This document shows positions 8,216-22,275 of a stretch of 64,000 bases of DNA, piece after piece. How positions within the stretch are numbered: position 1 is the first letter of the stretch; the number at the start of each line of letters is the position of its first letter. This stretch comes from Actinospica robiniae DSM 44927 (GTDB lineage: Bacteria; Actinomycetota; Actinomycetes; Streptomycetales; Catenulisporaceae): NCBI RefSeq assembly GCF_000504285.1, contig NZ_KI632511.1, positions 2,167,372-2,231,371 of the forward strand. Reading direction: 5' to 3'. Made by a program: the position numbers and the translations under genes. The notes beneath the pieces are model-generated. The model ran no database searches and was not told the origin of the DNA. It saw nothing but the letters and a program-made list of their open reading frames with translations.

Positions 8216-11188
8216 TCAGCAGTCGTGCAAGAGCGTCTCCGCCTCATCGATGTGCTCGTCGCCGAGCATGTGGAAGAGCCGGCAGGCTTCTTCGAGGTGG
8301 GCGCGCGCCGCCGGGCCCCGGTCGGAGGCGATCAGGGCGCGGCCGAGGTCGAGGCGGATCAGCGCCTGCGTATGGAAGTCGTCCGCCTCCAAGGACTTCG
8401 CCAGTCCCTGCTCGAACCAGGACACTGCCTCAGCAGCCTGGTTTCCCCGCAGGTATTCGGCGCCGATGCCGTGCGCGGTCATGCCGGTCCCGCGCACGTC
8501 GCCGACCTCGATGCGGATCGCCATCGCCGCGGTCAGGTAGCCCAGCGCCTTGTCGGGGCGGCCGGCGAGCGGGACGATCTGGCCCAGATTGCTCAGCGTC
8601 ATCGCCTGACCGGGCAGGTCGCCGACGCGGACCTGGAGCGCGAGGGAACGCTCGAGGAACCCCACCGCCTCGGTCATGTCCTCGCGGCGATAAGCCAGGA
8701 CGCCGAGGTTGTTGAGCGTCAGTGCCTCGCCGGCCGGGTCGTCGATCGACTGGCGGAGCACCAGGGCTTGGCACAGCACATCTTCGGCCTCCCCGAGCTT
8801 CTGCATCTCGATGTAGGCGGTGCCGATGCCGTTGAGCACCCAGGCCTCGGCCAGCCGGTCCGCCGCCGCGCGCGCTGCGGTCAGACCGTGGCGGTGTACG
8901 CCGAGCAGCGGCTCCCAGCGGCGGCGCACGGACATCGGACCCCAGGCCGCGACGGCTATCCGCCAGGCGTGTGCGAACGCGCCGATCGCGAGCGCGTGGG
9001 ATGCCGCGGCGCACACGTTGAGGTGCTCGAAGTCGACCCAGGCGAGGGCGTCCGAGCGGGACTCGAAGCCGACGTCCGGCGGCAACGGTGCGGCTTCGGC
9101 GGCCATGCGCCGGCGCTGCGGGGTCGCGACGAGGTCCGCCGTGTACACGGCGTGCGCGTACCAGGCGACGACCCGCTCGAAGCCGACGTCCGGCGGCGAC
9201 GGTGCGGCTTCGGCGGCCATGCGCCGGCGCTGCGGGGTCGCGACGAGGTCCGCCGTGTACACGGCGTGCGCGTACCAGGCGACGACCCGCTCGACGGCGT
9301 CGCCGCGGACCTGCTCGTCGAGGCGCGCTTGAGCCTGCTCGGCGGCGAAGACCCGCAGCAGATCGTGCAGCCGATACCGGCCGGCTGCGGGCGATTCCAC
9401 CATGTGCCGATCGACCAGCCGTTCGAGTACGCACTCTGTCTCGGCCGGCCGGCGGCCGAGCAGGGCGGCTGCGGCGGGAAGCGAGAGGTCCGTGCCAGAC
9501 CACAGACTCAGCAGGCACAGCGCGGTCGCCGGGTCGAGCGCGGAGACCGGCGCGGAGACTGCCGCGGCCTCGAGCTGCTCGAAGCCGACTTCGAAGCAGG
9601 CCCGGACGTCGAGATCGCCGGAGGCCAGCGCGTCGAGCCGGCCGCGCTCGTCGGCCAGGCGGTCCGCCAGGTGCCGGATCGGCCAGGCCGGCCGGGCGGC
9701 GAGCCTGGTTCCGACGATCCGGACCGCGAGCGGCAGTCCGGCGCAGGCGCGCGCGACGGCGTCGACGGCCTCGGGCTCGGCCGCCACCCGCGCCTCGCCG
9801 GCCAGCCGCGCCAGCAACTGGCGGCTCTCGGCCTCGGTCAGGCCCTCGAGTTCGACCGTCGTGGCGCCGTCGATGCCCGCCAGCGACGTGCGGCTGGTCA
9901 CCACGACCGCCGAGCCGGGGCCTGTGGGCACCAGGTCGCGCACGTCCTTCGAGTCGCTGACGTCGTCGAGCAGGATCAGCAGCCTGCGCCCGCTCGTGGC
10001 CGACCGGTACGCGCCGGTCAGGTGGGCCGCGTCGGCGGGCTGGGCTTCGGTCCGCGTCCCGAGGGCGGCGAGGAAGCCCCGCTGAACGTCCGCCGGTGAC
10101 ACCGCGTCAGCCGCGACACCGGCCATCGAGGCGAACAGCTGGCCGTCGGGGAACCGGGAACGCAGCCGGTTCGCGACGTGGACGGCGAGCGCCGTCTTGC
10201 CGACACCGCCGGGGCCGGTGACCACGAGGATCCGCGGCGCCTCGTCGTCCGGGTCCAGCAGTTTCGCGATCAGCCGGGCGTCGTCCTCGCGGCCGGAGAA
10301 GTCGGCGGTCGCGGCGGGCAGCTGGGCTGGAGCCGTGTACTGCTCGTCGTGGACATCAGGCTTCGAGGGCGCGGCGGGGGCGGCCGATGCGGTCGGGGCC
10401 GGGGCTGAGGTGACGGCGATCGGCGCGGCGCGGCCGCGGTGTTCGAGGCTCGGATCGGCGTCGAGTATGCGCTCGTGCAGATTCCGCAGAGCCGGACCGG
10501 GCTCGACCCCGATCTCGCTGCTGAGCAACGCGCGTACGCGCTGGTAGACGGCCAGGGCCTCGCTCTGCCGGCCGGTCCGGTAGAGCGCCAGCATCATCTG
10601 TGTGGCCGGGGTCTCGCGGAACGGATGCTCGGCCATGAGGCCGGCGAGATCGGTGACGACGGCGGCGTGCGCGCCGAGCTGGAGATCGGCTTCGATGCGC
10701 GCCTCGACGGTCTGCAGCCGCGCCTCCTGCAGGCGGTGGATCTCCTCGCTCCACGCGGCCGGCGGATCGAGGTCGGCGAGCGGGTCGCCCCGCCACAGCG
10801 CGAGCGCGGCCACGCAACTGGCACGGGCCTGGTCCCAGGCTCCTGCCTCGGAATGCCGACGCGCGGCGGTCCGGAACCCCTCGAACTGCGCCACGTCGAG
10901 CTCCGCGTCGTGCACGACGGCGAGGTAGCCCGGCGACCGGGTGAGGATCCTGGCTGCGGCGGCCGGTCCGAGCGCGCGCCGAAGCCGCATCGCGTAGCTG
11001 TGCAGGGTGGTGTCGGCGCAAGCCGGCGGGTCTGTGTTCCAGACGAGGTCGGCGAGGCGGGAGAGCGAGGCGACCCGGTTCGGTTCAAGCAGCAGCGCCG
11101 CCAGCAAGGTGCGCTGCCGCAGGGAGGAGATCCGCCGTTCCACGACGTCGTCGTGGACGAAGACCGTTCCCAGTAAACCGAAGCGCAT
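8216..11188 (-). CDS. AfsR/SARP-family regulator (SARP-BTAD-NB-ARC-TPR)
   Basis: This 990-residue regulator has an OmpR-like DNA-binding domain at about 1-95, a bacterial transcriptional activator domain at about 97-240, and an Ala/Pro linker. An NB-ARC ATPase follows, with Walker A GPGGVGKT at 325-332 and Walker B RLLILLDDV at 402-410. TPR repeats fill about 740-985. The architecture is that of AfsR-type activators of secondary metabolism. Between the ATPase and TPR parts, residues 634-671 and 672-709 are a near-identical tandem repeat (see the separate feature). No biosynthetic cluster is adjacent, so its targets lie elsewhere. Confidence 0.9.
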   Translation of the reverse strand: MRFGLLGTVFVHDDVVERRISSLRQRTLLAALLLEPNRVASLSRLADLVWNTDPPACADTTLHSYAMRLRRALGPAAAARILTRSPGYLAVVHDAELDVAQFEGFRTAARRHSEAGAWDQARASCVAALALWRGDPLADLDPPAAWSEEIHRLQEARLQTVEARIEADLQLGAHAAVVTDLAGLMAEHPFRETPATQMMLALYRTGRQSEALAVYQRVRALLSSEIGVEPGPALRNLHERILDADPSLEHRGRAAPIAVTSAPAPTASAAPAAPSKPDVHDEQYTAPAQLPAATADFSGREDDARLIAKLLDPDDEAPRILVVTGPGGVGKTALAVHVANRLRSRFPDGQLFASMAGVAADAVSPADVQRGFLAALGTRTEAQPADAAHLTGAYRSATSGRRLLILLDDVSDSKDVRDLVPTGPGSAVVVTSRTSLAGIDGATTVELEGLTEAESRQLLARLAGEARVAAEPEAVDAVARACAGLPLAVRIVGTRLAARPAWPIRHLADRLADERGRLDALASGDLDVRACFEVGFEQLEAAAVSAPVSALDPATALCLLSLWSGTDLSLPAAAALLGRRPAETECVLERLVDRHMVESPAAGRYRLHDLLRVFAAEQAQARLDEQVRGDAVERVVAWYAHAVYTADLVATPQRRRMAAEAAPSPPDVGFERVVAWYAHAVYTADLVATPQRRRMAAEAAPLPPDVGFESRSDALAWVDFEHLNVCAAASHALAIGAFAHAWRIAVAAWGPMSVRRRWEPLLGVHRHGLTAARAAADRLAEAWVLNGIGTAYIEMQKLGEAEDVLCQALVLRQSIDDPAGEALTLNNLGVLAYRREDMTEAVGFLERSLALQVRVGDLPGQAMTLSNLGQIVPLAGRPDKALGYLTAAMAIRIEVGDVRGTGMTAHGIGAEYLRGNQAAEAVSWFEQGLAKSLEADDFHTQALIRLDLGRALIASDRGPAARAHLEEACRLFHMLGDEHIDEAETLLHDC
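9062..9289 (-). repeat. 114-bp in-frame tandem duplication inside the AfsR-like gene
   Basis: Bases 9062-9175 and 9176-9289 are 113/114 identical; the only difference is A9084 versus G9198. The unit is 38 codons (starting RVVAWYAHAVYTADL), so the frame is preserved. The single difference changes one residue (Leu versus Ser). The near identity marks a very recent duplication. Confidence 0.95.
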
Positions 11189-12429: not shown

Positions 12430-13527
12430 GTGGCAAGATTCTCTCGCGCTACCAGCATCGTGATCTCAGTGCTCTTAGGGCTGGGGTCCCTCACCCTGGC
12501 CACCAGCGCCCAGGCGGCCACCACGCAGCTGTGCCAGGAGCAGTCCGCGCCTGCGGTCAGCGGTGTCTACAACGTGCAGAACGACGAGTGGGGGTCGGGC
12601 GCCGCCGAGTGCATCACCACCGACGGCAACGCCGACTTCACCGTCGGCAGCTCGGCAATCGCCAACGCGACGAACGGCGCGCCCGGCGCCTACCCGTCCA
12701 TCTATCAGGGCTGCCACTTCGGTGTCTGCACCTCGGGCGGGCTGACCTCCACTCCGGTCCAGGTCTCGAGCCTGACGACCGGCAAGGTCACCTCGAGCTG
12801 GTCCACCACGCAGCCCGGGGGCAGCAACGACTACGACGTCGCCTACGACGTCTGGTTCAACCACACCGCGACCACGAACGGCCAGCCCAACTGCACCGAG
12901 CTGATGGTCTGGCTCAACCACAACGGCCCGGTCCAGCCGTACGGCACCCAGGTGGCGACGGGCGTCAGCGTCGGCGGCCGGAGCTACAACGTCTGGGAGG
13001 GCAGCCAGTGGTTCGGTAACACGGTCTCGTACACCATGACCACTCCGGCCACCTCGGTCAGCGGGCTCGACTTCGCGCCGCTGGCCCAGGACGCGGTCAG
13101 CCGCGGCTACCTGTCCAGCTCCTGCTACCTCATCGACATCGAGGCCGGCTTCGAGATCTGGCAGGGCGGGGCCGGGCTGGCCACCAACTCGTTCTCCGTG
13201 GCCGTGAACGGCGCCGCGCCGGTCCCGCCGTCCTGCACCGTGGCCTACACGCTCAACAACAGCTCCAACGGGTCCATGCAGGCCAACGTCATCGTGACAG
13301 ACACCGGCAACAGCCCGCTCAACAGCTGGAAGCTGACCTGGACCTACCCCGGCGACACGAAGATCACCAGCATGTGGGCGGGCACGTACGCGCAATCGGG
13401 CGCCGCGGTCACGGTGACCAACGCGTCTTACGACGGGACGATCGCCCCTGGCGCCTCGGTCGAGGTCGGCCTCAACGGCACGTATACGAGCAATGACGCG
13501 GTGCCGACCAACATCACCTGTAGCTGA
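12430..13527 (+). CDS. Secreted GH12 endoglucanase with C-terminal CBM2
   Basis: The protein has 365 residues from GTG 12430, behind GAAGGAGG. The signal peptide covers 1-29 (ATSAQA). The GH12 domain spans about 33-260: Glu157 in TELMVW is the expected nucleophile and Glu242 in AGFEIWQGG the acid/base. A short linker leads to a CBM2 at about 268-365, flanked by Cys residues and with surface Trp (NSWKLTWTYPG). It should cut beta-1,4-glucan or xyloglucan internally. A second GH12/CBM2 enzyme at 36.8 kb has the modules in the reverse order. Confidence 0.92.
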   Translation: MARFSRATSIVISVLLGLGSLTLATSAQAATTQLCQEQSAPAVSGVYNVQNDEWGSGAAECITTDGNADFTVGSSAIANATNGAPGAYPSIYQGCHFGVCTSGGLTSTPVQVSSLTTGKVTSSWSTTQPGGSNDYDVAYDVWFNHTATTNGQPNCTELMVWLNHNGPVQPYGTQVATGVSVGGRSYNVWEGSQWFGNTVSYTMTTPATSVSGLDFAPLAQDAVSRGYLSSSCYLIDIEAGFEIWQGGAGLATNSFSVAVNGAAPVPPSCTVAYTLNNSSNGSMQANVIVTDTGNSPLNSWKLTWTYPGDTKITSMWAGTYAQSGAAVTVTNASYDGTIAPGASVEVGLNGTYTSNDAVPTNITCS

Positions 13528-13596: not shown

Positions 13597-16356
13597 TCAC
13601 GCCGGAGAGATCACGCGACGCACGTAGGCGCGCACGTCGGCGTCCGAGTCGTCCGCTGCCTTGGCCAGCGCCTGGTCCACGTCGGCGCGGCCCGCTCGGG
13701 GTGTCAGGGCTATGACTGCCGCTTTACGCACGTCGGCGTGCTCGTCCCGGAGCAGCGAGGCCAGCGCGTCAGTTGCCGCTGAGTCGAACTCGGAGCCGGA
13801 CGCCGCGCCGCCCAAAGCCATGGCAGCCCCCTTACGCACTTGCCACGCCTCGTCCTCGGCGGCCGCGACCGCCGCGGTGGCGAGCTCAGGGTCCGTGACC
13901 AGACTCGACGCGGACTCCAGGGCGGCCGCACGCACCAAGTAGTCCGGGTCGCGCGCGAGGCGGGCCAACGGTTCTGCCGAAGCGGGGTGGCCGATCGTGC
14001 CGATTCCCTTGGCGGCTGCTATTCGGACGTCGCGGTCAGGGTCCGTGATCGCCGCGGCCAGCGCCTCGTGTTCGTCGAGTGAGACCAGCGCGTGCACAGC
14101 CGCAGCCCGGACTCGTGCCTGCTCGTCGCGCAACGCCGCAGCGAACAACGCGCGGTCGCCCATGCGCAGCGCCCGCAGGACGTCGACGACCACGGCTCTG
14201 ACGTACGGGTCCGGAAGACGGAGCGAGTCAGTAAGGGCACTGACGAGATCGGGCGAGGGAGTCAGCACCTCGACCAGTTCCGTCAGGCCGGCTGCGGCAG
14301 CGCGCCGGACGGAGCTGTCCTCATCGCCGAGTAGCGTCGTCAGCAGCCGGCCGGCCTCCGGTGGCACGGTCTCGGTAAGCACACTGATGACGGCTCGGCG
14401 CACTTCCGGCGCGGGGTCGGCGAGGTAGCCGGCCAACTGCCCAGATCCGGCCTCCTCCTCGGCGAGGGCCAGCAGAGCCAGGATGCGCGCACCGCTCGGC
14501 AGGGCGGGCGCGTCGCGCCCGACGCTCTCCTCGAGCCGAACCGCCTGTACCGGCGTCCCCGCAGCGCTTCCCGCGCGGGCAACGTCGAGTCCTGAAACGA
14601 TCGGCCCGAGGACACGGACCGGCCGGTCCGGCTGTGGCTCGTACTCTTCGACCGGCACGAGGTAGGCGGCCACCGGACGTCGGAGGAACTCCATCCGGCC
14701 ATCAGGGTCCTTGCGCAGGTTGAGGTGGTCGAGCCACTCGGCGTCGTCCTGCTCAGGGATGTCCGCGCGCTCGTGGTAGAGGCCCCAGCGGCTCTCCGTA
14801 CGCACGAGCGAGGACTGCGCCGCCATCATCGCGCAGTCCAGGATGAACCCGACCTCGGCGCAGCGCATGAGCTCGTGCGGGGTGCGGGCGCCCATCGAGG
14901 CGACCTCGTCGGCCATCCGCTCGAAGGTCTCGACCGCGATCCCCAGCTTGCGGCCGGTCTTGGGCGGCGCGACGTAGTCGTTCACGAAGCGGCGCAGCTT
15001 GTACTCGACCTGCGGCTGCGGCGGACCATCGGGGTTGCGCAACGGTCGGTAGATCAGCTCGTGGGCGGCGGCGACCTGCTCCTCCGGCAGTTCCGCGGGC
15101 ACAGGGCCGGCGGAACGGACCAGGTGCGCGGCATGCTGGCCGGCGAGGTCGCCGAAGACGAACGCGCCGATCATGTAATTGTGCGGGACGCAGGCCAGGT
15201 CGCCCGCCGCGTAAAGGCCGGGCACCGTCGTGGCCGCGTTCTCGTCGACCCAGACCCCTGATCCCGAGTGGCCGCCGCACAGGCCGATCTCGGAGATGTG
15301 CATCTCGATGTCGTGGGTCCGGTAGTCGTGCCCGCGGTTGGCGTGGAAGGTGCCGCGGGTGGGCCGCTCGGTCGTGTGCAGGATGCCTTCGAGTGCTTCG
15401 ATCGTGCTCTCCGGCAGATGGCTGACCTTCAGGTAGACCGGCCCGCGCGCGGACTCGATCTCCCGGGCGACCTCCGCCATCATCCGGCCGGACCAGTAGT
15501 CGCAGTCCACGAAGCGCTCGCCGCGGCTGTTGACCTGGTAGCCGCCGAACGGGTTGGCCACGTACGCGCAGGCCGGGCCGTTGTAGTCCTTGATCAGGGG
15601 ATTGATCTGGAAGCACTCGATGCCGCTGAGCTCCGCGCCCGCGTGGTACGCCATGGAATGGCCGTCGCCGGCGTTCGTCGGATTCTCGTAAGTGCCGTAC
15701 AGATAGCCGCTGGCCGGCAGACCGAGCCGACCGCTCGCGCCGGTCGCCAAGATCACGGCGCCTGCCGACACGGTCACGAAGGCGCCGGTCCGAGTGTCGA
15801 ACCCGGCGGCACCGAGCGCGCGGCCTTCCGCGGTGAGCACCCGCACCGGCATGACCCGGTTCTCGATCCGGATCAGCTCGCGCATCGAGCGTTCGCGCAG
15901 CACCCGGTAAAGCACCTTCTTGACATCCTTGCCCTCCGGCATGGGAAGGACGTAGCTGCCGGAGCGGTGCACCTTGCGCACGGCGTACTCGCCGTATTCG
16001 TCCTTCTCGAACTTCACGCCGTAGCGCTCAAGGCGTTGCACCATCTCGAAACCGCGGATGGCGGTCTGGCGCACCGTGCGCTGGTTGACGATGCCGTCGT
16101 TGGCGCGGGTGACGTCGGCGACGTACGTGTCCGGGTCGGCCTTGCCGGGGATGACGGCGTTGTTCACCCCGTCCATGCCCATGGCAAGGGCACCGGAGTG
16201 GCGCACGTGCGCCTTCTCGAGAATCAGGACACGTGCGCCCTCGTCGGCAGCGCTGAGCGCGGCCATGGTTCCCGCGGTGCCGCCGCCGATCACCAGCACA
16301 TCGCACTCCAGACGGGTGCGATCATCGATCGACGGGGTCGTGAGGTGGCTCGTCAT
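13597..16356 (-). CDS. AprA/fumarate-reductase-like flavoprotein fused to HEAT repeats
   Basis: This 919-residue protein has an N-terminal FAD-binding fold (VLVIGGGTAGT at 21-30, then HSGALAMGMDG). It has the second FAD motif VPGLYAAGDLACVPHNYMIG at 378-397 and the C-terminal helical domain of the succinate/fumarate/adenylylsulfate reductase flavoproteins, ending near ESRWGLYHERADIP (521-534). From about residue 622 to the end there are around nine PBS-lyase-type HEAT repeats (for example DPAPEVRRAVISVL, DPDRDVRIAAAKGIG). Its start overlaps the ATPase stop as ATGA. With the ferredoxin-like gene of the same operon it forms an AprAB-like redox pair. The substrate is unknown, and the rest of dissimilatory sulfate metabolism is not visible. 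Confidence 0.85.
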   Translation of the reverse strand: MTSHLTTPSIDDRTRLECDVLVIGGGTAGTMAALSAADEGARVLILEKAHVRHSGALAMGMDGVNNAVIPGKADPDTYVADVTRANDGIVNQRTVRQTAIRGFEMVQRLERYGVKFEKDEYGEYAVRKVHRSGSYVLPMPEGKDVKKVLYRVLRERSMRELIRIENRVMPVRVLTAEGRALGAAGFDTRTGAFVTVSAGAVILATGASGRLGLPASGYLYGTYENPTNAGDGHSMAYHAGAELSGIECFQINPLIKDYNGPACAYVANPFGGYQVNSRGERFVDCDYWSGRMMAEVAREIESARGPVYLKVSHLPESTIEALEGILHTTERPTRGTFHANRGHDYRTHDIEMHISEIGLCGGHSGSGVWVDENAATTVPGLYAAGDLACVPHNYMIGAFVFGDLAGQHAAHLVRSAGPVPAELPEEQVAAAHELIYRPLRNPDGPPQPQVEYKLRRFVNDYVAPPKTGRKLGIAVETFERMADEVASMGARTPHELMRCAEVGFILDCAMMAAQSSLVRTESRWGLYHERADIPEQDDAEWLDHLNLRKDPDGRMEFLRRPVAAYLVPVEEYEPQPDRPVRVLGPIVSGLDVARAGSAAGTPVQAVRLEESVGRDAPALPSGARILALLALAEEEAGSGQLAGYLADPAPEVRRAVISVLTETVPPEAGRLLTTLLGDEDSSVRRAAAAGLTELVEVLTPSPDLVSALTDSLRLPDPYVRAVVVDVLRALRMGDRALFAAALRDEQARVRAAAVHALVSLDEHEALAAAITDPDRDVRIAAAKGIGTIGHPASAEPLARLARDPDYLVRAAALESASSLVTDPELATAAVAAAEDEAWQVRKGAAMALGGAASGSEFDSAATDALASLLRDEHADVRKAAVIALTPRAGRADVDQALAKAADDSDADVRAYVRRVISPA

Positions 16357-17138
16357 GGTTTCTCCGGCTCGAGTGCGTCAAGGATCTGCTCGCGGGCCTG
16401 CTCACGCGCGACGTCCTCGACGCGCGGGCTCGGCACTCGGACCAGGTCGCGTACGCCGCGCCGGCCGAGCACGACGATCCGATCGCCGAGGGCGAGGGCC
16501 TCGTCCACGTCGTGCGTGACGAACAGGACGGTCGGCGAAGACTCCTGCCACACCGTGACGAGCAGGCGGCGCATCGCGGCGCGGGTCGCGGGATCGAGAG
16601 CGCCGAAGGGTTCGTCCATCAGCACCGTCGGCGGGCCGCCGATCAGCGCGCGGGCCAGCTGGACCCGTTGCCGCATGCCGCCGGACAGCTGGCGGGGCAG
16701 GTGGCTTTCGAAGCCTGCGAGGCCGACCTGCTCGATCCAGCTTCGTGCCTGCTCGTCGCGCTCGAGTCGCGAATGCCCCTTCACCGTGAGGGGGAATTCG
16801 ATGTTGCGCCGCACGTCGAGCCACGGCAGCAACGCATCCTCTTGGAAGATCATGGCGCGATCCGGGCCGGGGCCGGTGACAGGGCTGCCGTCCACGGTGA
16901 TCCGGCCGCCGCCGACCGGCAGCAGGCCCGCGACGCCGCGCAGCAGCGTCGACTTGCCGCAACCCGACGGTCCGACCACGACGAGGATCTCTCCGGGCGC
17001 GGCCTCGAGGTCGACATCGGCCAGGACCGTGCGTCGGCCGTAGCCGAGGCTGAGGCGCTCAAAGCGGATGTGCGAGCCGCGGCCCGCGGTGTCGCGGCCG
17101 TCGGCGAGTGCGGCCGGGCCGCTCAGCGTCGCGCTCAC
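16353..17138 (-). CDS. ABC transporter ATPase (nitrate/sulfonate/taurine type)
   Basis: The protein has 261 residues from GTG 17138, whose codon overlaps the permease stop (GTGA). Walker A is VVGPSGCGKSTLL near residues 50-62. The Q-loop segment is IFQEDALLPW, the signature LSGGMRQRVQLARALIGG, Walker B PTVLMDEPFGALDP, and the H-loop LFVTHDVDEA. It is a SsuB/TauB/NrtD-type ATPase energising the permease encoded just upstream. The overlaps on both sides indicate translational coupling. Confidence 0.92.
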   Translation of the reverse strand: MSATLSGPAALADGRDTAGRGSHIRFERLSLGYGRRTVLADVDLEAAPGEILVVVGPSGCGKSTLLRGVAGLLPVGGGRITVDGSPVTGPGPDRAMIFQEDALLPWLDVRRNIEFPLTVKGHSRLERDEQARSWIEQVGLAGFESHLPRQLSGGMRQRVQLARALIGGPPTVLMDEPFGALDPATRAAMRRLLVTVWQESSPTVLFVTHDVDEALALGDRIVVLGRRGVRDLVRVPSPRVEDVAREQAREQILDALEPEKP

Positions 17139-17995
17139 CGCTGTGCTCCTTCCTCGCGCGGCAGCCATCGGGTCGCCCGGCGTCCGGCGAGCTCGACTGC
17201 TCCCGAGGTGATGCCGCCGAGCAGCCCGATGGTCAACATGCCGACGACCACGCCGGGATAGTCGATCACTGTGTAGGCCTCCCAGGTGCGGTATCCGACC
17301 CCGTATTGGCCCGAGATCATCTCCGCGGACACGACGCAGATCCATGCGACACCCATGCCGACCGAGAGCCCGCCGAAGATTCCGGGCAGCGCGCCCGGCA
17401 GTACGACGCGGCGCAGCACGGTGTACCTTCCGGCGCCGAGCGTCCGCACTGCTTCCTCGACCGTGACCGGCAGAGCCCTGACGGCGTGGCGGGTGGAGAC
17501 GAAGATCGGGAAGAAGGCCGCCGTGGTCGTGATGGCGACCATGCCCTGCTCGTTGCTGGGAAAAGCCAGGATCGCCACTGGAACCAGCGCGATCGCCGGG
17601 ATCGGCCGGACGACTTCGAGGATCGGCTTGAGCAGGTCCTCGGCCACCCGGGAGCGGGCCACCGCCACGCCCGCCGCAACGCCGAGGACGCCGGCGATGC
17701 AGAAGCCGAGGACGATGCGCAGCAGGCTCGCGCCGAGGTCCTGGTAGTACTGCCCGGTATGCAGCTGCCGCCAGAACTCCGAGGCGACCGCCGTGGCCGA
17801 GGGCAGGTTGCCGAAGCGGATCCAGACGGACGCCTGGTGCGTGGTCAGCAGCTGCCAGAGCAGTACGGCCGTCACCAGCGAGGCGATGCGCACGCCCCAG
17901 CGTGCCGGGCGGCCGTAGCGGCTGCGGACGCGGTGCTCGGGCAGCGGATCGCTCGCCGCCGGAGCCCAGTCGAGTTCGGGTGATGCAGTGGTCAT
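17135..17995 (-). CDS. ABC transporter permease (SsuC/TauC/NrtB type)
   Basis: This 286-residue membrane protein has about six hydrophobic segments (for example VRIASLVTAVLLWQLL near 36-51 and IVLGFCIAGVLGVAAGVAVA). It carries the EAA cytoplasmic loop that docks on the ATPase (VEEAVRTLGAGRYTVLRRVV then LPGALPGIFGG). It forms the inner-membrane pore of the uptake system and follows the binding-protein gene by 25 bases. Confidence 0.92.
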   Translation of the reverse strand: MTTASPELDWAPAASDPLPEHRVRSRYGRPARWGVRIASLVTAVLLWQLLTTHQASVWIRFGNLPSATAVASEFWRQLHTGQYYQDLGASLLRIVLGFCIAGVLGVAAGVAVARSRVAEDLLKPILEVVRPIPAIALVPVAILAFPSNEQGMVAITTTAAFFPIFVSTRHAVRALPVTVEEAVRTLGAGRYTVLRRVVLPGALPGIFGGLSVGMGVAWICVVSAEMISGQYGVGYRTWEAYTVIDYPGVVVGMLTIGLLGGITSGAVELAGRRATRWLPREEGAQR

Positions 17996-18020
17996 CGAAA
18001 CCGTCTCCTCGTCGGCGGTA

Positions 18021-19472
18021 TCAGGCCAGCGCGACCGCGTCGGTGTAGCTGACGATGGACGTGCCGGGGTGCGCGCTCACGTAGCTCGCGGCGGCGGAAC
18101 GGGTCGTGAACGGCAGGTACCGGTCGTTGGCCGCGGCTGAGGGATCCAGGACCCAGATATCGTCCTCGGCGAACCAGCGGGTGCCGATCTGCGCGTCCGG
18201 AACGTACGCCGCCCGCACCTTCTGGCCCTCGGCCTGGGCGGTGCGGATGAAGCGCAGCAGGCAGGTCGGCGTCGCGGCCGGGTGGGTGGAGTCCTCGCCC
18301 TGCAGCCAGACCTCGCCGGCTGTCGCCTGATCCGTCACCGGGATGCCGCACGCCGAGTCTGTCCCGGTGATCGTGCTCGGATTCGTGGTGGAGGACAGTT
18401 GCGCCGCGTACCCCGTCCCGTAGGCCTTCTGCACGTAGCTGCTGTCGATGAACGAGTTCAGGTTGATCGAGTTCAGCACTCCGATGGAGCTGAGGAACGG
18501 CACGTCCTGGCGCATCGCAGAGGTCAGCTGCGGCTTGAGCGTCGGATCGAAGGTCGCGATGCCGTCGGGGCCGTTGTAGAGGTAGACGACCTCGGGCGCC
18601 AGACCGGTCGCGGAGGCCACACTCTGCGCGGCCTGCAACGGGTGATTCCAGATGTACTGGGTCGCCTGGATCTCGGCGCGCAGAAAGGCCTCGACGATGT
18701 CGGAATGGCTCTTCGCGAACGCGTTGCGCACGACGACGCCGTGCAGCGTCGGCACGTTCAGCGCGCCGCCGTCGTAGAGCACCTGTGCCTGTCCGGAAAA
18801 GACGAGCTGTCCGGGCCACGCGATGAACTGCGATAGCGCCGCGACGCTGCCGGCCTGCAAAGCCGAGGAGCCGACCGAGGGCTGCTGGTTGACCACGTGC
18901 ACCGCGTTCGCGGGATCGAGCCCGGCCTGCCGCAGCGCCTGGACGAGGGTGCCGTCCGCGGCGGAGCCCACGCTCGTCGACACGTTGCGCCCGGCCAACT
19001 GCGCGACCGACTGCACACTCGAGCCGGGCTTGACGACGATCATGTTGAGCGAGCCGCGCAGGTTGTAGCCGGTCGTCGCGATCATCGTCGTGGCCGTGGA
19101 CGCACCGGTCTGGGCCTTGGCGCCGTTGATGAGCAAGGGATAGTCGCCCATCGAGCCGATGTCGATCTTCCCGGCGATCATCTGGGTCGTGATCGGCGCT
19201 CCGGTGTCGTAGGCCTCCCAGTCGACCGTGTACTTCTTGCCGGTCGTGCGGCCGAGCTGGTGGAGCTGCTGCTCGAAATAGCCGAGCGAGCGCAGCAGGG
19301 TGCCGGCGTTGACCGTGTCGATGGTGTTCGGCTGGTAGCCGATCACCACGGTGACCGTGTTGCCGGAGCCGCCGCTGCAGCCGGCAGCCGCCGAGGGCAC
19401 CGCGAGCACGAGCGCCAGCGGGATTATCAGGGGTTTTATTCTGGACCGGAGGGACCGGAGGGTGAGACGCAC
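18021..19472 (-). CDS. Lipoprotein solute-binding protein with NosL-like C-terminal domain
   Basis: This 483-residue protein has a lipobox PSAAAGC, with Cys32 as the likely lipidated residue. Residues about 40-350 are an NMT1/SsuA/NrtA-type binding fold (VVIGYQPNTIDTVNAGTLLR, GSMGDYPLLINGAKAQTG). This region is followed by about 110 extra residues. The last 80 or so (CLLRFIRTA, VRAAYVPDAQIGTRWFAEDD, YLPFTTRSAAASYVSAHPGT) look like NosL, the copper-binding accessory lipoprotein of nitrous oxide reductase. Cys375 and Cys404 lie in the extension. The binding domain should capture the transported anion outside the membrane. The NosL-like part hints at metal handling or a structural role, which is inference. 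Confidence 0.8.
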   Translation of the reverse strand: MRLTLRSLRSRIKPLIIPLALVLAVPSAAAGCSGGSGNTVTVVIGYQPNTIDTVNAGTLLRSLGYFEQQLHQLGRTTGKKYTVDWEAYDTGAPITTQMIAGKIDIGSMGDYPLLINGAKAQTGASTATTMIATTGYNLRGSLNMIVVKPGSSVQSVAQLAGRNVSTSVGSAADGTLVQALRQAGLDPANAVHVVNQQPSVGSSALQAGSVAALSQFIAWPGQLVFSGQAQVLYDGGALNVPTLHGVVVRNAFAKSHSDIVEAFLRAEIQATQYIWNHPLQAAQSVASATGLAPEVVYLYNGPDGIATFDPTLKPQLTSAMRQDVPFLSSIGVLNSINLNSFIDSSYVQKAYGTGYAAQLSSTTNPSTITGTDSACGIPVTDQATAGEVWLQGEDSTHPAATPTCLLRFIRTAQAEGQKVRAAYVPDAQIGTRWFAEDDIWVLDPSAAANDRYLPFTTRSAAASYVSAHPGTSIVSYTDAVALA

Positions 19473-19482
19473 CGTCGACCTT

Positions 19483-19713
19483 TCAACGCAGCAGGTAGGG
19501 CATGTTGACCGTGACCGCGCCGGTGGGACATCGGGCGGCGCACGGACCGCAGTACCAGCATTCGTCGACGTGCATGAACGCCTTGCCGGTCTCGGGATCG
19601 ATGGCCAGCGAGTCGAGCGGGCAGACCTCGACGCACAGCTTGCAGCCCTCGATGCACAAGGACGCGTCGATCGTCACCGGGACGTCGCTGCGCGAGTTCT
19701 CAATCAGCGGCAC
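19483..19713 (-). CDS. 2x[4Fe-4S] ferredoxin (AprB-like)
   Basis: This 76-residue protein has two full cluster motifs: CIEGCKLCVEVCP at residues 20-32 and CWYCGPCAARCP at 52-63. The spacing and the aromatic CWYCGPC are typical of the AprB/bacterial ferredoxin fold. It overlaps the regulator gene by 10 bases and precedes the binding-protein gene by 10 bases. It is the natural electron partner of the flavoprotein at the operon's end. Confidence 0.9.
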   Translation of the reverse strand: MPLIENSRSDVPVTIDASLCIEGCKLCVEVCPLDSLAIDPETGKAFMHVDECWYCGPCAARCPTGAVTVNMPYLLR

Positions 19714-20477
19714 GGGTCTTCTTCCCCCGGGGAGGTGAGGTGCGGACGGGAGAGCAGGCCGTTCATCCGCACCCGGTCGCCGCGGAAGCGGATGTACTCC
19801 AGGTCGACCGGACGGCCGTCCTCGAGGTGGGTCAGGCGCTCGACCATGAGCAGCGCCGCGCCCTCGGGGAGCTGGAGCAGCGCGGCCGAGTGCGGATCGG
19901 CGTTGACGGCCTCGAGACTGATCTCGGCCGTGCCGAGCCGCTGGCCGCAGAGTTCTTCGATGAGCACGAAGACGTCGTTGGCCGCCAGGTCCTCGGCCAG
20001 CACGGCCTCGCCGACGTCAGGGTGCAGATAGGTCAGGTCCAGCGAGAGGACCAACCCGTTGAGACTGCGCAGCCGCTCGAGGTAGACGACCTTCGTCGGC
20101 TTCGCCAGGCCGAGCCGGCGCGCGACGGCCGGCGGCGCCGCGACGGACCCGGCGGAGCGGATCTCGTTGCTCACCCGGCCGTGCCCGACCAGCGTCTCGC
20201 CGAGCCCCAGCAGGGTATTGAGACCGTGCGGGTACTTCTCGCAGACCACGAACGTGCCGATGCCCGGCACCCGGTCGACCAGACCCTCGTCCCGGAGCAG
20301 CCCCAGCGCCTCGCGGACGGTGTTGCGCGTCGTGTCGAACTCCTGGATCAGCGCGTTCTCGACCGGCAGCGTCCCCTCGCGCAGCGCGCCGTCCAAGATC
20401 TGCCGGCGCAGCACGTCGGCGATCTCCCGCGCCCGGTCCGCGCGCCGCCTGCGCTGCGGGGCCAGGGGTGTGCTCAT
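19704..20477 (-). CDS. GntR/HutC-family regulator of the flavoprotein/ABC operon
   Basis: About 257 residues from ATG 20477, preceded by AAAGGGCG; an earlier in-frame ATG at 20501 lacks a ribosome site. The winged-helix domain contains REIADVLRRQILDG and EFDTTRNTVREALGLLRDEG. The rest is a UTRA ligand-binding domain (YLERLRSLNGLVLSLDLTYL, ALLMVERLTHLEDGRPVDLE). It is the first gene of the operon and probably senses the substrate or product and autoregulates. Confidence 0.88.
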   Translation of the reverse strand: MSTPLAPQRRRRADRAREIADVLRRQILDGALREGTLPVENALIQEFDTTRNTVREALGLLRDEGLVDRVPGIGTFVVCEKYPHGLNTLLGLGETLVGHGRVSNEIRSAGSVAAPPAVARRLGLAKPTKVVYLERLRSLNGLVLSLDLTYLHPDVGEAVLAEDLAANDVFVLIEELCGQRLGTAEISLEAVNADPHSAALLQLPEGAALLMVERLTHLEDGRPVDLEYIRFRGDRVRMNGLLSRPHLTSPGEEDPCR

Positions 20478-20819
20478 CGATGACGCCCTTTCATTCCTCA
20501 TTCACGAGGGGCATTGAACAGCCCGCTCGGCTTCGGAACGGAGGTTAGCAACGACGCAAGAGAATGTGTGTTTCCCTTGAGTTACGCCACCCGGGGGCCG
20601 TCTCATCTTCCGCTGGTCAGCGGCGATGGCGGGGTGGCCGGGAATATGCCGGTGTTCCGCCAGTACGTGCACACGGCGAGATGCATTCTCTATTTGCTGG
20701 GTCGTCAGAATATTTCTGTGTACGAGATATTCGGCGGTCAGCGGATTCCGGCGGCGATGCCGCCACCGCTTCGCCGTTCAACGCGCACCGGCCGGTGCAA
20801 TCCACACCGCAGCAGCGCG
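20478..20819. promoter_or_regulatory. Promoter region of the flavoprotein/ABC operon, with AT-rich inverted repeat
   Basis: These 342 bases separate the caspase gene from the GntR gene and hold no convincing gene. An unusually AT-rich inverted repeat, GAATAT (20708-20713) - N13 - ATATTC (20727-20732), stands out against the GC-rich background. It could be a promoter/operator for the GntR regulator, which is read leftward from here. A second A/T-richer patch lies near 20680-20700. Confidence 0.4.
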
Positions 20820-21836
20820 CTAGCCGCGCAGCCTCTGCAGCGTCGAGCGCGCCTGGCTGACGTCGGCGGGGCGGCAGCCGGAGAGATCGCCCGAGAGCAG
20901 GATCTCAAGACTCTGCCGCGCCTCGTCCGGTCGGCCCGCGACGCTCAGCCAGTTCGCGGCGGTGTATGCGTAGTCGAATACGTCGGCCGGATCGGCTCCG
21001 GCCGCCTGCCGGGCGTCGGCGACGATGCCCGTGAACGACTCCGCCGCTTCCTCGGGCCGGCCGGAGTTCCCGAGCAACTGGGCGTATCGCGCGCGCTTGC
21101 GCAGGCCGGCCGGGGTGAGCCCGGTGCCGTGGGCACGGTTGGGCGCCAGCGCTATCCATCCGCTCTCGTCCACCGTGCGCTGATGCGGCGTGAGCCGACC
21201 GTCCGGCGCGTGCCGCAGCTCCACGACGAGCCGTTGATAGATCGTGTGCAACTCCAGGGATCGACGGTCCTCCGGGATCCCTTCGTGCAGGAGGCGCAGG
21301 AGCCCGCCGGTGAAGACCGTGTGCCGTCGCTCGCCTTCGACCAGTGCCTTGTTCTTGGGGCCGACCGCCGTCAGGAGGTGCATCTCGGCCGCCGCCGGCT
21401 CGCGCATGGCCAGGCCGGCGAAGCAGCAGTCGAGGATGACCACGACCCGGCACCGCGACCTGCCGTGCGTGACGGCCTGAAGCTGGGCCAGGACGTCGGC
21501 GAGGGCGAGTCCGGTGCGGTCGCGGTGGCCGCGCTGGTCGATGGACCCGGTGAGCGCCAGGTAGAGGCGCCCGTCATGATCCATGCCGTGTCCGGTGTAG
21601 TAGAACAGCAACCGGTCGCAGGGCTCTTGGACGGCGATCGCGTCGAGAACCGCCGTGCCCTGCTGGGGATCGATGACGCAGCGGACGGCGCCCTCGTCCA
21701 CGACGCCGTCCGGCCCGGTCAACGTGCTTGCCAGATCATTGATGTTGTTGACGGCCTGTTCCACGTTCGGCAGGCCGCCGGTGTGCTGCGACGTGCCCAC
21801 CAGCACGGCGCGCCACTCGGGCCGATCAGCCGGCAT
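20820..21836 (-). CDS. Caspase-like protease (peptidase C14 family)
   Basis: This 338-residue protein has an N-terminal caspase fold with the catalytic dyad in place. His83 is in FYYTGHGMD and the Cys pair C137-C138 in VVVILDCCFAGL, C138 being the usual nucleophile position. Residues about 230-338 form a helical, TPR-like C-terminal part (LRKRARYAQLLGNSGRPEEA). It should cleave proteins after an activating signal. Its start overlaps the end of the EACC1-type gene by 11 bases. In actinobacteria such pairs belong to predicted conflict or cell-death systems. The target is unknown. Confidence 0.85.
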   Translation of the reverse strand: MPADRPEWRAVLVGTSQHTGGLPNVEQAVNNINDLASTLTGPDGVVDEGAVRCVIDPQQGTAVLDAIAVQEPCDRLLFYYTGHGMDHDGRLYLALTGSIDQRGHRDRTGLALADVLAQLQAVTHGRSRCRVVVILDCCFAGLAMREPAAAEMHLLTAVGPKNKALVEGERRHTVFTGGLLRLLHEGIPEDRRSLELHTIYQRLVVELRHAPDGRLTPHQRTVDESGWIALAPNRAHGTGLTPAGLRKRARYAQLLGNSGRPEEAAESFTGIVADARQAAGADPADVFDYAYTAANWLSVAGRPDEARQSLEILLSGDLSGCRPADVSQARSTLQRLRG

Positions 21837-22275
21837 CGGCGCCGTCGTCGGGAGCGGCGAGCTCGCTGCGCACGGGCCCGGCCGCCCCGCCGCCCGCGTC
21901 GGGCCGGAAGAACTCCGTCAACCGCGGGACCAGCCGCTGCGCCGCGGCCTCGTCGGCGGCCTTGATATGCAGGCTCGAGCCGTCGGCCTTCGTGGCCGTG
22001 ACGTCGACGACCCCGTTCTTGAGGCGCTCCTTGAGCCAGTCCACCACGACCTTCGCCAGCGGCGTCAGCGCGGCGAGCACCTCGACCGCGTCGGCGACGC
22101 CGCCGAGCTCGCCGGGGCCCGGCTCGCGCGTGCGCACGCTGGCGACGGCCTCGACGTCGTCGTTCTCCTCGATCCACTCGGCGAGATCGCGCAGCGCCTC
22201 CGCCGCCTCCATCTCGTCCGGCCCGCTCCCGGGCGCGTCATCCGGACTGCCGCCGGTGAAGACTATGCGATTCAC
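21826..22275 (-). CDS. EACC1-type (effector-associated constant component) protein
   Basis: The protein has 149 residues from GTG 22275, behind AGGAG. The pattern is a short strand, EALRDLAEWIEENDDVEAVA, a glycine-rich turn, then VLAALTPLAKVVVDWLKER and a C-terminal beta region VDVTATKADGSSLHIKAADE. It fits the EACC1 family, which is found next to caspases and other effectors in actinobacterial conflict systems. It has no enzyme motif and presumably acts as a scaffold or regulator of the caspase. Residues after about 125 are a low-complexity tail. The family assignment is by recognition of pattern and context. Confidence 0.7.
   Translation of the reverse strand: MNRIVFTGGSPDDAPGSGPDEMEAAEALRDLAEWIEENDDVEAVASVRTREPGPGELGGVADAVEVLAALTPLAKVVVDWLKERLKNGVVDVTATKADGSSLHIKAADEAAAQRLVPRLTEFFRPDAGGGAAGPVRSELAAPDDGADAG

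Follow-up and report, generated by a model that had tools for sequence, protein, structure and literature searches.

A widespread operon joining an AprA-like flavoprotein, a ferredoxin and an ABC importer, with a possible role in organosulfur scavenging

The PAPS reductase of Methanothermococcus thermolithotrophicus (8a8o) and the dissimilatory APS reductase AprAB (1jnr, 2fja) are both built from a flavoprotein binding flavin adenine dinucleotide (FAD) and a 2x[4Fe-4S] partner, and the report on the methanogen enzyme describes the release of sulfite, a proposed attack by the N5 atom of FAD and the retention of the proposed AprA catalytic residues (PMC10322725). A reductase, a ferredoxin and a sulfonate-type ATP-binding cassette (ABC) importer are likewise brought together in the arylsulfonate cluster AsfRABC, whose AsfAB proteins are presented, in the available excerpts, as a reductase/ferredoxin electron-transport pair beside the importer (PMC4267179, PMC2864759). 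We have analyzed a stretch of 64,000 nucleotides of Actinospica robiniae DSM 44927 (the window; positions 2167372-2231371 of its contig, within a 9.92-Mb genome), in which six genes combine such components in one operon: an AprA-like flavoprotein with a fused HEAT-repeat module, a 2x[4Fe-4S] ferredoxin, the substrate-binding protein (SBP), permease and ATPase of an ABC importer, and a GntR-family regulator. In comparison with PAPS reductase and AprAB, the operon adds the HEAT module and the dedicated importer, and its ferredoxin has 76 residues against 104-166. AsfRABC differs in having a LysR regulator, and the excerpts on it make no mention of a HEAT module. As to the importer, the fold of the SBP binding domain and the types of permease and ATPase are alike in the operon and in SsuABC/TauABC.

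Distribution and conservation of the gene set

The operon is real and widespread, being found in actinobacteria and, in a related form, in proteobacteria and cyanobacteria. An earlier note on the window, made from its sequence alone, had described six overlapping or closely spaced genes, which place a SsuABC/TauABC-like importer, an AprA/fumarate-reductase-like flavoprotein and its 2x[4Fe-4S] partner under a regulator of the HutC type. This description is borne out by the open reading frames (ORFs), all of them uninterrupted and lying close together on the minus strand (span 20477-13597), by their Pfam domains (Table 1) and by the gene order in other genomes. In a scan of species genomes at least 550 candidate stretches encoded relatives, the true number being larger, and the top 80 loci were kept, every one of them from an actinobacterial record. 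All six genes are present in 75 of these 80 loci and follow the order of the window in 75 out of 75, which indicates that the set is more than a chance assembly; the incomplete loci either lie at contig ends (L016, L017, L075, L080) or have no permease and ATPase match and only an SBP fragment (L023). The best flavoprotein segment is 64-70% identical in 79 loci and 87% identical in L009, a metagenome-assembled genome of the Catenulisporales, and the HEAT part is fused to the flavoprotein in all 80. Among the 45 largest clusters of actinobacterial neighbours, which derive from mechanical ORF calls, many of them out-of-frame, none occupies a fixed place across genera.

Within a sample of 246 genomes of the window's class (completeness at least 90, own genome included), 30 have a match above the cut-off of the NCBIfam model PRK08275, the lowest at 841.7 bits and the next-best match at 168.2 bits; that is, about one in eight carries this flavoprotein under a misleading housekeeping name. 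In the own genome the operon is present in a single copy, the seven other flavoprotein matches reaching at most 92.7 bits against 2028 for the operon copy, and the relatives of the SBP are remote only (at most 49.6 bits).

A tblastn search of plasmids gave 280 records with some match, the best 60 of which were considered, and 48 of these show at least 54% identity with at least 61% query coverage; on PRK08275, four of the latter (Cupriavidus, Acidithiobacillus, Pseudanabaena, Sinorhizobium) reach 1015-1123 bits. Annotation was inspected for 18 chosen non-actinobacterial plasmid loci (L096 is unannotated) and for the Tsukamurella locus, whose gene order is that of the window. Genes for the flavoprotein, the ferredoxin and the HEAT protein occur in 18 of the 18 annotated non-actinobacterial loci, the last being a separate gene in proteobacteria and cyanobacteria. 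Since the HEAT part is fused in every actinobacterial locus and the separate genes keep company on the plasmids, it is quite probable that flavoprotein, ferredoxin and HEAT module form one enzyme complex. The annotation names all three importer components in 14 of the 18 loci; in L093, L094, L116 and L124 the importer genes are absent, annotated only in part or of a different kind. A gene for a small DUF971/GBBH-like protein is added in 10 of the 18 (PF06155 confirmed on two), and a Mrp/NBP35 Fe-S carrier is found in 4/4 cyanobacterial loci (Pfam-confirmed on one). In the Nostoc locus (L116:11704-14885) five unrelated genes, encoding two HAD hydrolases, a methyltransferase, an acetyltransferase and a VOC/FosA-like protein, lie between flavoprotein and ferredoxin. 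P. phymatum Bphy_7232-37, considered as a possible copy, was set aside, there being no P. phymatum among the best 60 of the 280 plasmid records.

The flavoprotein and its ferredoxin

The flavoprotein is an unexplained AprA-like branch with a divergent active site, catalogued but without an explained function. It consists of a catalytic part (residues ~1-575) and of HEAT repeats (~604-919), and scores 1561 bits over its full length, HEAT part included, on NCBIfam NF010374 (PRK13800, cut-off 1196) and 857 bits on NF006131 (PRK08275, cut-off 587). The curated name of both families, 'fumarate reductase/succinate dehydrogenase', is unsupported by residues, importer and scores, and the protein is mis-named in annotation. 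Indeed, among the best 25 of 68 models the SdhA/FrdA cut-offs are missed (TfrA 160.2 against 718, TIGR01812 148.4 against 567.3, others lower), and those of AprA are missed as well (TIGR02061 125 against 641.75, PRK06854 272.5 against 557). No paper on the PRK13800/PRK08275 flavoprotein family was found among the matches listed from the open-access literature, and the one article that holds the name PRK13800 uses it for a domain match of a fungal PP2A HEAT subunit (PMC8401276).

By sequence, the catalytic part has its nearest relative of solved structure in the PAPS reductase alpha subunit of the methanogen (8a8o; E 4.6e-58, and 3.9e-65 in a profile search), which at 224 bits is followed by AprA (1jnr, 126 bits) and SdhA (1nek, 95 bits), L-aspartate oxidase also coming after AprA; designed HEAT-type proteins match the HEAT part. 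The protein had been described as AprA/fumarate-reductase-like, which can now be narrowed, as it is nearer to the PAPS/APS reductase alpha subunits than to SdhA, but Arg265 of AprA is replaced by Leu and the AprA, SdhA and FrdA cut-offs are not reached. On the 1jnr alignment, AprA Asn74, Trp234 and Arg265, with the names and roles that we take these residues to have, correspond to Asn65, Tyr223 and Leu254, and His363 aligns with the active-site His of 8a8o, the His of AprA itself lying beyond the printed alignment. Shared with 8a8o and AprA are Asn74, the active-site His (8a8o alignment) and a C-terminal RxE[ST]RW..Y..R.D.PE stretch. Leu254, Tyr223, Asn65, His363, Cys248 and Cys263 are invariant in 43/43 actinobacterial rows (the window and 42 of the 80 loci), and Leu254, the position of an Arg in 8a8o and 1jnr, is also kept in 27/27 family rows from three phyla, together with the stretches GTYEN, ECxQxNPLxKDYNG, SEIGxCxGHSxSG and VPHNYMxGAF.

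Whether the flavoprotein falls inside a characterised clade, a question raised in the earlier note, was addressed with a maximum-likelihood tree of 33 rows (27 of the family and six others). None of the 27 family rows lies inside the AprA/PAPS reductase pair, which forms its own branch (length 8.3, support 100/99) with a joining point at the family base that the tree leaves unresolved. Two AsfA candidates of C. metallidurans and two own-genome paralogues (L004, L006) make up a separate group (support 100/98). As the branches are long, the six non-family rows are placed only as not inside the family groups; the tree omits the own-genome paralogues L002, L003, L007 and L008 and the C. metallidurans rows L099 and L100, the last two being covered by L107 and L108.

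The megaplasmid of C. metallidurans holds three weak flavoprotein matches (32%, 31% and 31%), among which L113 is TcuA-like by eye. The AsfA candidates are L108, the preferred one, with an overlapping 4Fe-4S ferredoxin ORF downstream, and L107, beside an ORF with 4Fe-4S motifs; as the record carries no gene tags, the equation of either with Rmet_4334 is tentative. Identity to the AsfA candidate flavoprotein amounts to 31% over residues 9-402. The idea that the flavoprotein is AsfA was dropped, as both candidates lie outside the family on very long branches. The candidate AsfA/AsfB pair (L108:5882-9015, minus strand) is preceded by a same-strand ORF that appears by eye to be fatty-acid-desaturase-like, and which might be an oxygenase partner.

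The ferredoxin carries the cluster motifs CIEGCKLCVEVCP and CWYCGPCAARCP, and in 84/84 sequences the second motif has a Trp directly behind its first Cys. Its PDB matches include AprB chains (3gyx_B, 8a8o_C, 1jnr_B), polyferredoxins scoring better, and the AprB cut-off is missed (TIGR02060 32.3 against 135.65).

Proposed function and competing explanations

We propose, with a probability of about 0.4, that this is a transport-coupled operon for organosulfur scavenging, by import, cleavage and release of sulfite. The SBP, with its sulfonate-type domain and NosL-like part, would capture a small sulfonate-like anion, which permease and ATPase would import and which the complex of flavoprotein, ferredoxin and HEAT module would cleave. 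The ferredoxin is proposed to pass electrons to FAD, and N5 of the reduced FAD would attack the sulfur, as proposed for APS/PAPS reductase; sulfite would then leave for assimilation or export, and the UTRA regulator would sense the compound. The parts of this proposal are not equally firm: a substrate of the sulfonate type is likely, membership of the operon in sulfur metabolism is reasonably probable, and the direct release of sulfite by FAD chemistry is put forward tentatively. Whether these proteins constitute a new and widespread class of ferredoxin-dependent desulfonases, derived from AprA, equipped with a HEAT module and a remodelled active site, and splitting imported organosulfonates or N-sulfonates reductively to sulfite without O2 in Actinobacteria, Proteobacteria and Cyanobacteria, is doubtful. 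To our knowledge, the known assimilatory desulfonases use oxygen. If sulfite does arise from sulfonates in this manner, an enzyme class would be added to sulfur scavenging; if not, the family still stands as an AprA-superfamily branch that lacks an explanation and whose active site is unfamiliar yet strictly conserved. As the SBP of the importer and the enzyme share one operon, an assay is ready at hand.

The SBP comprises a domain of SsuA/TauA fold (~37-350) and a NosL-like C-terminal part (~351-483), which sets it, at 483 residues, apart from SsuA and TauA. In an AlphaFold2 (AF2) model, with a predicted local distance difference test (pLDDT) score of 90.8, the best two fold matches of the binding domain are SsuA (Z 32.1, root-mean-square deviation 2.6, 287 aligned) and TauA (Z 30.1, root-mean-square deviation 2.2, 280 aligned). 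Cys32, in a lipobox-like N-terminus, is invariant in 43 rows. The putative NosL-like part, which the earlier note had missed, is new here: eight C-terminal pieces compared with NosL PF05573 (cut-off 24) score above the cut-off in three cases (34.4, 26.9, 24.3), below it in three (window 18.2) and not at all in two, PF05573 matches at E<=1 are found in 9/43 full-length SBPs, and the best PDB match of a profile of 11 C-terminal pieces is NosL 7og7 (E 5.7e-4). A copper role of this part is doubtful, since the 11 pieces have not a single invariant Cys, His or Met in common.

With regard to the link to sulfur, a named sulfur gene outside the core occurs in 10 of the 18 annotated plasmid loci (L089, L091, L092, L115, L116, L117, L122, L123, L124 and L127, luciferase-like monooxygenases counted), as compared with one of the eight control stretches (p 0.049, one-sided). 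The controls were eight 20-kb stretches out of four 50-kb stretches from 4 of the 18 records; one of the 50-kb stretches holds a sulfonate SBP, two luciferase-like monooxygenase genes and soxC together, and MsrB and a MOSC protein in another were left uncounted. The telling cases are Leptolyngbya and two Pseudanabaena, where the core is followed by sulfite exporters of the TauE/SafE type together with YeiH or a 'putative sulfate exporter'; in Aquabacterium a TauE/SafE gene precedes it. In Methylobacterium radiotolerans the genes of FdxA and of a ferredoxin-NADP reductase belong to the operon's gene run, FdxA being found at another locus too, which hints at the reductive direction. The import of an organosulfur or nitrogen compound had been suggested from the gene content; the neighbours favour organosulfur, weakly, and nitrogen less so.

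A number of observations weigh against the scavenging proposal. Bicarbonate and nitrate SBPs have nearly the same fold (Z ~28), so that the modelled structure favours the sulfonate type but does not prove it. The SBP misses the SsuA and TauA cut-offs (TIGR01728 124.2 against 163.5, TIGR01729 74.1 against 304.25), as do the permease for SsuC (its best NCBIfam model, 129 against 347 bits) and the ATPase for TauB (likewise its best, 223.5 against 357 bits), and no listed substrate-specific NCBIfam cut-off is passed by any of the three. The enrichment in sulfur neighbours is weak and represents a lean, not proof, because the word list was post hoc and three of the ten loci share one cyanobacterial cluster, the controls coming moreover from 4/18 records. 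Sulfur-type neighbours are few in the 80 actinobacterial loci (NtaA-type 7, YeiH-like 5, TauD 2, TauE 0). The replacement of AprA Arg265 and Trp234 by Leu254 and Tyr223 means that the sulfite-FAD chemistry is not transferable unchanged. Finally, the AF2 model of the flavoprotein has a mean pLDDT of 63.7, with 335/919 residues below 50, mostly in the catalytic part, and the pocket is not visible in it; the HEAT helices are.

An alternative that we regard as unlikely is that flavoprotein and ferredoxin are an electron-transfer module feeding an oxygenase encoded elsewhere, which cleaves the sulfonate, as proposed for AsfAB. The description of AsfAB agrees with it, and in the own genome, at ~809-844 kb (L128, L129, L135, L137-L139), several luciferase-like matches related to SsuD, but short of its cut-off, lie together with remote relatives of the SBP, so that an oxidative sulfonate route of this organism possibly lies there. 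None of the 22 TIGR03565 (SsuD-type) matches of the genome falls in the window, which for this type agrees with the earlier statement that no sulfonate monooxygenase is nearby, other oxygenase types not having been searched there. However, 27/27 rows across three phyla show strict conservation of the stretches that correspond to the AprA pocket, which is unusual for a mere carrier, no oxygenase was seen in a constant position next to the operon, and the C. metallidurans AsfA candidates are far outside the family in the tree. Improbable too is the use of an inorganic or N-S oxyanion (sulfamate, thiosulfate or sulfite), in which a small sulfo-anion, and not an organosulfonate, is reduced or oxidised: the nearest flavoprotein relatives act on sulfo-nucleotides, sulfite/sulfate exporters lie beside three cyanobacterial clusters, and an ammonium transporter and PII are found beside the Aquabacterium operon, but the SBP fold is nearest to SsuA and TauA and the loci inspected showed no set of sulfur-oxidation genes accompanying the core. 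Although, according to the fold list, proteins of the NMT1 type handle a wide range of anions and pyrimidines and the NCBIfam family is named after SdhA/FrdA, a non-sulfur substrate (a carboxylate, a nitrogen compound or a thiamine-precursor-like molecule) for a dehydrogenase/reductase of the SdhA/FrdA superfamily is improbable, as the flavoprotein scores far below the cut-offs of the SdhA/FrdA models listed (e.g. 148 against 567 bits) and the HPTG and NR motifs (seen in row L004), which we take to be the dicarboxylate site, are INPL and NY in the flavoprotein family.

Regulators, upstream element and neighbouring genes

The GntR/UTRA regulator of the window does not reach the HutC and PhnF cut-offs, and an alternative in-frame ATG start at 20501 is possible; the GTG start of the ATPase (17138) was picked from the sequence, the mechanical ORF beginning at 17345. 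Regulators at the plasmid loci are of GntR/UTRA type in L089, L091, L094, L117, L119 and L120, of Crp/Fnr type in rhizobia and Methylobacterium, and of LysR type in 3/4 cyanobacteria. These LysR proteins have 666-678 residues, of which the C-terminal half reproduces the SBP of the neighbouring transporter (31-37% identity to the own SBP over 265-297 residues, E 3e-48 to 2e-58), for which reason they probably sense the imported compound. Such fusions, new here, may be cytoplasmic sensors built from the transporter.

An element upstream of the operon, overlooked in the earlier note, is likewise new here. The core GTGGCGNAA (GTGGCG[CTG]AA) occurs within ~300 nt upstream of the regulator gene on the sense strand in 61/78 actinobacterial upstream regions, that of the window included, and on the other strand in 0/78; the remainder of these loci holds 34 copies, roughly one per 99 kb. 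No significance is claimed for these counts, as the motif was derived from the very sequences counted, many of which are related. The core is absent in the upstream stretches examined of six non-actinobacterial loci. In the genome there are 5 copies of the exact GGTGGCGTAAC and 3 of the reversed control, therefore no regulon can be read from it. Positions 20300-21000 gave no Rfam match at E up to 1. As judged from this pattern, GGTGGCGTAACTC is a candidate control site of the operon.

Table 1. Positions of the operon genes and of the regulatory features; coordinates are those of the window unless a locus is named.
Feature	Position	Strand	Domains and remarks
GntR-family regulator, UTRA ligand domain (HutC-type)	19704..20477	-	PF07702 113.7 bits, PF00392 58.9 bits
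2x[4Fe-4S] ferredoxin, 76 aa	19483..19713	-	Fer4_7; 10-nt overlap with GntR gene
ABC substrate-binding protein (SBP), 483 aa	18021..19472	-	Pfam NMT1; 10-nt gap after ferredoxin
ABC permease, SsuC/TauC-like	17135..17995	-	PF00528 (BPD_transp_1); 25-nt gap after SBP
ABC ATPase, TauB-like	16353..17138	-	PF00005 (ABC_tran); 4-nt overlap with permease stop
AprA-like flavoprotein with fused HEAT, 919 residues	13597..16356	-	FAD_binding_2, Succ_DH_flav_C, HEAT_2; 4-nt overlap with ATPase
Candidate control site GGTGGCGTAACTC (core GTGGCGNAA)	20579..20591	-	motif conserved upstream of operon
LysR-SBP fusion regulators	L115:7646-9661, L127:7661-9661, L092:7388-9424	-	

Immediately upstream of the operon (20820-22275, minus strand), a caspase-domain protein (PF00656) stands beside an EACC1 effector-associated component (PF19953), which looks like a conflict-system pair. 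A GH12 glycosidase with a CBM2 domain (12430-13527, plus strand) is convergent with the operon end, and a BTAD/NB-ARC/TPR regulator (8216-11188, minus strand) contains a near-perfect tandem duplication of ~39 residues, VVAWYAHAVYTADLVATPQRRRMAAEAAP..., in two consecutive copies.

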